A DNA stretch of 64,000 nt, from NCBI GenBank assembly GCA_004379135.1, contig NBNI01000002.1, positions 124,001 to 188,000 of the forward strand, given 5' to 3'. The notes below the pieces were generated by a model. It was not told the DNA's origin and searched no databases. It saw only the letters and a program-made list of their open reading frames with translations. Below, in pieces: positions 12,916-13,653 of this stretch (position 1 is the first letter of the stretch; every line of letters starts with the position of its first letter). Position numbers and translations under genes: made by a program. The DNA is from Acidimicrobiales bacterium mtb01. Lineage in GTDB: Bacteria; Actinomycetota; Acidimicrobiia; Acidimicrobiales; Ilumatobacteraceae.

Positions 12916-13299
12916 TCAGGCGACCCGGATGACGACCTCGTAGTCGGTCTTGTCGTCGGGGTTCGCGATCGAGCGAATGGTGCGGTCCTCGTCGATCACG
13001 AGCGTGGGACGTGGCAGAACCGCGGGGCGCCCGCGCGGCCTCTTGTTCACGACGATCACGCCGTTCTCGAGAAGCTCACCACCCCACACGCCCCATGGCT
13101 CGGCGCGATCGAGCGCACCCTGGAGACACGATGCGCTCAGAGCACATCGCGAGCAGATGGCCTTGGCGCGGGCGATGTCGACCAGGTCGTCGGAGAAGAA
13201 CAGCGGCGTGAGGGTGCCGTGTCCGTCTCCGCAACGTGCGACGGGAGCAACCGCGCTGATCGCGGTCTCGTCGATCTCGTTGATCTCGATGGTCGTCAT
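12916..13299 (-). CDS. whiB7: WhiB7-type iron-sulfur transcription regulator
   Basis: WhiB7 binds the primary sigma factor and activates intrinsic antibiotic-resistance genes in actinobacteria. The ATG at 13299 has AGGAGA and gives 127 residues. Four cluster cysteines (C23, C49, C52, C58) are followed by the turn EPWGVWGGE and the AT-hook KRPRGRP (86-92); the RAEPWGVWGGE...KRPRGRP sequence is the WhiB7 hallmark. Unlike mycobacterial WhiB7, about 35 residues follow the hook. The upstream leader has a terminator, a competing arm and an open reading frame (see 13334-13590), implying attenuation control. Confidence 0.93.
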   Translation of the reverse strand: MTTIEINEIDETAISAVAPVARCGDGHGTLTPLFFSDDLVDIARAKAICSRCALSASCLQGALDRAEPWGVWGGELLENGVIVVNKRPRGRPAVLPRPTLVIDEDRTIRSIANPDDKTDYEVVIRVA

Positions 13300-13333
13300 G
13301 GTGGTCTCCTGGTTCGTGTTCATTCGTGGCCGG

Positions 13334-13372
13334 AAAAACAAAAGGGCCGCTGGGATTCGGATCCCAGCGGCC
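13334..13372 (-). terminator. Intrinsic terminator in the whiB7 leader
   Basis: On the minus strand, a 12-bp GC-rich stem (13345-13356 with 13361-13372, loop 13357-13360) is followed by TTTTGTTTTT (13343-13334). It ends 35 nt before the whiB7 ATG and no completed gene precedes it, so it would stop leader transcripts. Confidence 0.88.
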
Positions 13373-13431
13373 TCGGTGCCTTCTCAGTGCGATCTTGCGA
13401 TCTACGTGAGTGACTCCCCGAGCCGCTGGGG
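13361..13431 (-). promoter_or_regulatory. Putative antiterminator pairing of the whiB7 attenuator
   Basis: The leader copy CCCCAGCGGCT (minus strand of 13421-13431) nearly repeats the 3' arm of the terminator and can pair over 9-10 bp with the terminator's 5' arm (13361-13372). It lies inside the last codons of the leader open reading frame (stop at 13402-13404). A ribosome finishing the frame would cover it and allow termination; one stalled earlier would leave it free. The mutually exclusive pairing is seen directly; the regulatory logic is inferred. Confidence 0.7.
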
Positions 13432-13590
13432 CGGACGCTTCGTGGTGAAGTACTTGGGTGCACATCCCACGGCGGCCGCTGCGGCGTTATTCGCGAACAT
13501 GGCCGGCATGACGTACGACTGCCACGAGGACGACGACGAATGACCGGCGGAGCCGGCATGCATCGAAGCGGAGTGGGCGAACGTCGTCAT
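13402..13590 (-). CDS. whiB7 leader open reading frame (uORF)
   Basis: 62 codons beginning at an ATG with AGGAA about 7 nt upstream. It contains a five-Ser run and a five-Ala run and ends at TAG 13402-13404, about 30 nt before the terminator stem. Internal ATGs (13509, 13500) would give 35 or 32 residues but lack ribosome sites. Known whiB7 leaders carry a uORF whose translation senses ribosome-targeting drugs; the peptides themselves are poorly conserved. Position rather than sequence supports this call. Confidence 0.55.
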   Translation of the reverse strand: MTTFAHSASMHAGSAGHSSSSSWQSYVMPAMFANNAAAAAVGCAPKYFTTKRPPQRLGESLT

Positions 13591-13653
13591 AAGCGGTTCC
13601 TAGGAAACCAGTTCCGGCCCGCCTCCGCAAACGAATTAACGCAAATCGCCCTC

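Follow-up and report, generated by a model that had tools for sequence, protein, structure and literature searches.

The attenuator in the leader of mycobacterial whiB7 has reportedly been described by Burian and Thompson (2018). For whiB7/wblC of mycobacteria and Streptomyces the attenuation mechanism is established, such that complete translation of an upstream open reading frame (uORF) results in termination of transcription (PMC10727445, PMC11550727, PMC13393426). In the summary given in PMC11550727, the work of Lee, Lee and Roe (2022) on Streptomyces coelicolor wblC/whiB7 is represented as showing that uORF translation favours the terminator and that disturbed translation leads to the antiterminator and to read-through. 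The mycobacterial uORF possesses a Shine-Dalgarno (SD) sequence, and its transcription starts about 350 nt upstream of whiB7 (Dinan 2014, PMC4128351). How does the whiB7 locus of a distant actinobacterial class compare with these systems? A literature search found no paper joining WhiB with Ilumatobacter or describing such a leader in Acidimicrobiia, the paper of Lee and colleagues itself lying outside this comparison.

In the 64,000-nucleotide stretch of DNA analysed here (the window), we consider a ribosome-controlled transcription attenuator of whiB7 to be the best explanation of the leader and very likely the correct one. The leader shares with the mycobacterial loci that we fetched a uORF, a Rho-independent terminator after the uORF and an antiterminator overlapping both. 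However, the arms read GTCCGTGG/CCACGGAC in mycobacteria and CCCAGC/GCTGGG here, the peptide ends differ, and the mycobacterial uORF with its SD stands against a uORF that looks near-leaderless here. Leaders of Streptomyces-related Actinomycetes resemble this one in that the stop codon lies inside a hairpin and the segments follow in the same order (A-B-C-D, as defined below); the terminator is AGGCCGCGGA..TCCGCGGCCT in the Streptomyces system and GAGGCCGYYGGG..CCCRRCGGCC here, and the uORF there often ends in PPV*, whereas here it ends in TKRxxxRxLGxxxT*. The ilvB1 leader of M. tuberculosis, an amino-acid leader-peptide attenuator (PMC13236596), is translated, as is predicted for the uORF here, and likewise has mutually exclusive terminator and antiterminator, but the present leader is without a conserved sensor-codon run for one amino acid, and what it would control is a stress regulator and not an operon for biosynthesis.

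The host genome has a size of 2.56 Mb and a completeness of 97.7%. Its family, Ilumatobacteraceae, includes Desertimonas flava and Ilumatobacter, and the membership of Acidimicrobiia that the initial annotation had left as an "if" is thereby confirmed. The whiB7 gene occupies positions 13299-12916 of the minus strand including the stop codon (127 aa plus stop) and is preceded by an SD, AGGAGA, at 13310-13305. Its product scores 45 bits for the Pfam Whib domain (PF02467), whose cut-off is 23.6, and the translation contains the four cysteines of the iron-sulfur domain in the region of C23, C49, C52 and C58. The AEPWGVWGGE turn and the C-terminal AT-hook KRPRGRP (RGRP) are present in this protein and in the family orthologues, in agreement with the identification as WhiB7 first made from RAEPWGVWGGE and KRPRGRP. 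A WhiB7 match was found in 174 of 222 genomes of the family. Two genera of the family (g10 and g11) possess a second WhiB7-like gene, marked by EPYGVWGG, located ~900 nt upstream of whiB7 and without a leader terminator (loci L031, L033, L035, L038, L039, L046, L058, L060 and L062); it is apparently a tandem duplicate that has escaped from attenuation. In genus g5 (L069, L074, L075, L076) the best WhiB7 match carries EVDGVWGG or EHYGVWGG, not EPWGVWGG, and the upstream terminator is absent, such that the attenuated gene may have been lost or replaced in that lineage.

On the same strand as whiB7, and as first annotated, a frame of 62 codons (MTTFAHSASMHAGSAGHSSSSSWQSYVMPAMFANNAAAAAVGCAPKYFTTKRPPQRLGESLT) spans positions 13590-13402 from the ATG at 13590 to the stop codon TAG at 13404-13402. 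Ahead of it lies a putative whiB7 promoter (13638-13602, minus strand) composed of TAATTC at 13638-13633, a −35 element TTGCGG at 13630-13625 and an extended −10 element TG-G-TTTCCT whose hexamer occupies 13607-13602. The corresponding pattern, TAAtTC-NN-TTGac-17 nt-TGnTTnCCTa, is strongly conserved in 18 aligned leaders of the genus, where it sits 9-12 nt ahead of the ATG of the uORF, and its exact form occurs at a single site in the genome, that of whiB7. A regulon search with this pattern and at most two mismatches returned other sites at near the control rate. The AT-rich TAAtTC just upstream of the −35 element in the 18 leaders is a candidate autoregulation box. Transcription is predicted to start near 13595, about 5 nt before the uORF ATG, and the uORF is probably near-leaderless in this genus. 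The ribosome site originally assigned to the uORF, AGGA at 13601-13598, probably lies outside the RNA because the conserved promoter places +1 near 13595. In another genus (g10), a good SD precedes several of the uORFs.

Four RNA segments are distinguished in what follows: A, the end of the uORF; B, the stop-codon hairpin; C, the 5' arm of the terminator; and D, its 3' arm (all on the minus strand). Segment A, the antiterminator strand CCCCAGCGGCTCGG (13431-13418), is located within the last uORF codons and pairs with segment C, CCGAGGCCGCTGGG (13376-13363), which is common to the antiterminator (A:C) and the terminator (C:D). The initial annotation had described an 11-nt copy of the terminator 3' arm in the uORF end, and this copy, CCCCAGCGGCT, is present at 13431-13421. 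Its pairing with the 5' arm also stands, but the length of 9-10 bp given for it was an undercount, as CCCAGCGGCTCGG (13430-13418) pairs with CCGAGGCCGCTGGG over 13 bp with one bulged base. Hairpin B (13410-13383) joins CTCA at 13410-13407 to TGAG at 13386-13383 around an inner GATC-GCAA-GATC at 13402-13391; in the predicted fold it encloses the uORF stop codon and is nested within the antiterminator, and the complete antiterminator unit of 69 nt including B has a predicted energy of −37 kcal/mol. The intrinsic terminator (13372-13345) consists of 12 bp formed by GGCCGCTGGGAT (13372-13361) and ATCCCAGCGGCC (13356-13345) around the loop CCGA, and is followed by the U-tract CTTTTGTTTTT (13344-13334), which is U-rich in relatives as well. 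The coordinates of this terminator, reported earlier as a 12-bp stem with a U-run shortly before the whiB7 ATG, hold; the hairpin folds in silico at −24.9 kcal/mol and is conserved in the family, and 34 nt separate the end of the U-tract (13334) from the ATG. The terminator 3' arm is partly repeated once more, as CAGCGGCC at 13481-13474, which falls in the codons of an Ala5 run and can also pair with C. This stretch is missing from the two closest relatives, and the copy is probably incidental to this genome. A search of the whole window with Rfam covariance models at their gathering thresholds returned no match to the leader, where sub-threshold chance matches alone occurred.

A fundamental question is which of the two pairings prevails as the leader is made. 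Before D is made, in-silico folding gives an A:C probability of about 0.995, either without a ribosome or with one halted at any position as far as codon 45. When the ribosome is placed at the stop codon instead, the A:C probability is 0 and that of the terminator is 0.98. Folding with and without A available, as proposed in the initial annotation, thus reproduces the antiterminator before D and the terminator with A covered, but the full leader at equilibrium without a ribosome yields the terminator anyway (0.96-0.99 in the window, and likewise in 50 of 53 family leaders). With the terminator preferred at equilibrium, the model requires a kinetic switch, and we infer that A:C would form first and outlast the passage of the polymerase through the U-tract. 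In the proposed mechanism, RNA polymerase would start just upstream of the uORF and make A, B, C and D in order. Under normal translation the ribosome would follow close behind, sit on the uORF end, mask A and open B, such that C would pair with D and transcription would stop at the terminator before whiB7. Under an inhibitor or a shortage that leaves tRNA uncharged, the ribosome would lag or stall at an earlier point of the uORF; A would then be free to pair with C around B once C is made, and the polymerase would clear the U-tract before D captures C. The resulting read-through would allow WhiB7 to be made, probably boosting its own promoter. By analogy with the mycobacterial and Streptomyces systems, read-through would thus be the response to inhibited translation, the ribosome would serve as the sensor, and WhiB7 would regulate itself.

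Which features of the uORF are under constraint? The frame and the C-terminal TKRxxxRxL...T* are retained throughout the family, and the N-terminal portion of the frame is variable in the family leaders and the end is kept; pN/pS values for the uORF in three groups of close relatives are 0.66, 0.47 and 0.16. A Lys-Arg pair, AAGCGT at 13440-13435 (codons 51-52), is positioned 12 codons before the stop, immediately 5' of segment A, and recurs in most family leaders (L009-L078). One hypothesis is that the TKRxxxRxL C-terminus, as a nascent peptide, makes the ribosome pause and so determines the time it spends over A and B, a reading that is compatible with the RNA switch and that we hold as tentative and rather unlikely. 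In its favour, 46 of 52 family uORFs have a Lys 11-13 residues from their end, where the background frequency is 2.7% per residue, and 19 of 21 leaders from other Acidimicrobiia families have one 9-16 codons ahead of the stop. Moreover, the third base of the Arg codon is free in the family uORFs (CGT 20, CGC 17, CGA 5), which indicates that the amino acid itself is conserved, and the conservation of the Lys-Arg pair is unaccounted for by A:C RNA pairing. However, the C-terminal conservation is partly forced by the RNA through segment A, and a Lys near the uORF end recurs far less consistently in Actinomycetes, with 18 of 55. The more specific proposal that the attenuator in this genus is read by ribosomes which initiate on a near-leaderless uORF and then meet a conserved Lys-Arg checkpoint, of nascent peptide or codon, 12 codons ahead of the stop is, in our judgement, distinctly unlikely. 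If it were true, the sensor would report leaderless initiation and exit-tunnel events, and the response spectrum would be unlike that of mycobacteria.

An alternative hypothesis is amino-acid-specific attenuation in which a run of five Ala or five Ser codons supplies the sensor codons. The initial annotation had pointed to both runs; both are present in the uORF, and mycobacterial whiB7 responds to alanine starvation according to the accounts of Poulton 2024 given in PMC13236596 and PMC10727445. Comparison bears out no importance of the Ala5 run. Its place is taken by AVMAA and AVTAA in L010 and L011, the two closest relatives, and no further uORF examined in the genus has a run of five Ala or of five Ser; the codons conserved throughout are those of Lys-Arg and of segment A near the end. 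For this reason, we rejected the Ala5 and Ser5 runs as sensors, and this form of attenuation is very improbable.

The terminator, the U-tract and the A-B-C order recur in 53 distinct leaders of the family, which allows the pairings to be examined by comparison. A different reading of the locus is that the hairpin is a mere terminator of a 62-codon small gene, with whiB7 transcribed from its own promoter and the copy of the arm incidental. The ungapped A-C match alone is indeed not rare in such GC-rich sequence, as shuffling the whole uORF equals it in 2.4-4.9% of cases and shuffling the last 60 nt in 0.1-0.6%. However, when the predicted folds are compared with 40 shuffles per leader of the part containing A and B, at least 10 A:C pairs are present in 52 of 53 family leaders, against a shuffle mean of 4.8 and with no shuffle as good. 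Among 43 aligned family leaders, A:C and B together are paired in 87.3% of cells (81.2% in shuffles) with 57 two-sided changes (18.6 in shuffles), and terminator and B together are paired in 93.3% of cells with 53 two-sided changes (19.0 in shuffles); none of 500 shuffles reached either count of changes, although these shuffle tests are inflated by the relatedness of the leaders. The terminator taken separately is paired in 97% of cells of the family alignment, the equivalent of hairpin B in relatives (ACGTaa...ACGT) shows two-sided changes in four of its seven pairs, and sliding the partner strand by one column reduces A:C pairing to 37-45%.

Individual columns separate A:C from C:D. The A:C pair changes from G-C to A-U in 9 leaders at columns 30:97 and in 14 leaders at columns 31:96, and at the latter the C-to-U change in segment C is mostly tolerated by the terminator as G-U. 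Changes in segment A thus track those in C regardless of D, as would be expected under selection on the antiterminator. For an A-C match beyond chance we regard the family comparison as decisive, the match in the single uORF being modest evidence. Besides this covariation of A with C in both family and class, the small-gene reading is opposed by the mere 34 nt between U-tract and whiB7 ATG, by a frame whose start is variable and whose end is kept, unlike that of an ordinary small protein, and by the conserved promoter that precedes the uORF, and we give it scarcely any credence. Least probable of all is translational control by a leader that hides the whiB7 ribosome-binding site, since the whiB7 SD at 13310-13305 lies outside every conserved hairpin and a U-tract directly follows the last of these, although an upstream uORF is also typical of translation attenuation. 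In support of ribosome-controlled attenuation of transcription, what the initial annotation's model predicts at the level of sequence is present: a frame ending in the leader, a conserved terminator, an antiterminator strand in the frame end and covariation of both pairings.

How far does the element extend? A covariance model built from the terminator and hairpin B only has a single true site in the genome (E 2e-17); its other hit is to the overlapping reverse strand. Across 246 genomes of the class, the model matches in 92 at E 0.01 or better, and 84 of 98 hits, including all 63 best-scoring ones, precede a WhiB7 match of the same strand by 32-310 nt; short hits to these terminators on their reverse strand are not counted among the 98 places compared. 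The element is carried by 84 of 129 WhiB7-type protein hits in the class, and many of the 45 without a model hit are weak hits, probably to paralogous WhiB-like genes. Sampled WhiB7-like paralogues without EPWGVWGG showed no terminator upstream, and the model gave no hit on five loci of such paralogues. On the class-wide alignment, which was fitted to the terminator and B without the A:C helix, A:C nevertheless covaries, with 30 two-sided cells against 11.7. The comparison of whiB7 orthologue leaders in Acidimicrobiia suggested at the outset therefore finds both alternative pairings to covary, and it shows the whiB7 attenuator, as predicted from these alignments, to be conserved across the class. 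When the model was applied more widely, 31 of 47 genomes hit belonged to other classes; their matches were all at E 3e-6 or worse and a WhiB motif was found in none of 14 such loci that were fetched, which indicates that the RNA element as modelled is class-specific.

The Acidimicrobiia model misses the leaders of Actinomycetes, which were instead reached via the WhiB7 protein and include those of Modestobacter, Frankia and mycobacteria. In these leaders a hairpin holds the uORF stop, and the 5' arm of the terminator that comes next pairs with the uORF end; at least 8 A:C pairs are present in the fold of 50 of 55 and the stop is inside B in 51 of 55, counts that stand without a shuffle control of their own. 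The arms vary by lineage, and on comparison of these leaders it is the A-B-C-D plan that is conserved between the classes, not the letters of the arms.

The regulatory kind described here is a known one, and what is new, and well supported by the alignments, is the class-wide comparative evidence for it in Acidimicrobiia. As there is no Rfam family for the leader, the alignment and model could serve class-wide annotation, and the Lys-Arg pair kept close to the end of the uORF presents a testable oddity. whiB7 attenuation, known from Mycobacterium and Streptomyces, is now predicted in a deep-branching, mostly uncultured class. It is possible that the arms were re-invented independently rather than inherited from a shared origin. 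That the two classes have one A-B-C-D plan in common suggests, however, that translation-stress control of intrinsic antibiotic resistance predates the split of the major actinobacterial classes.
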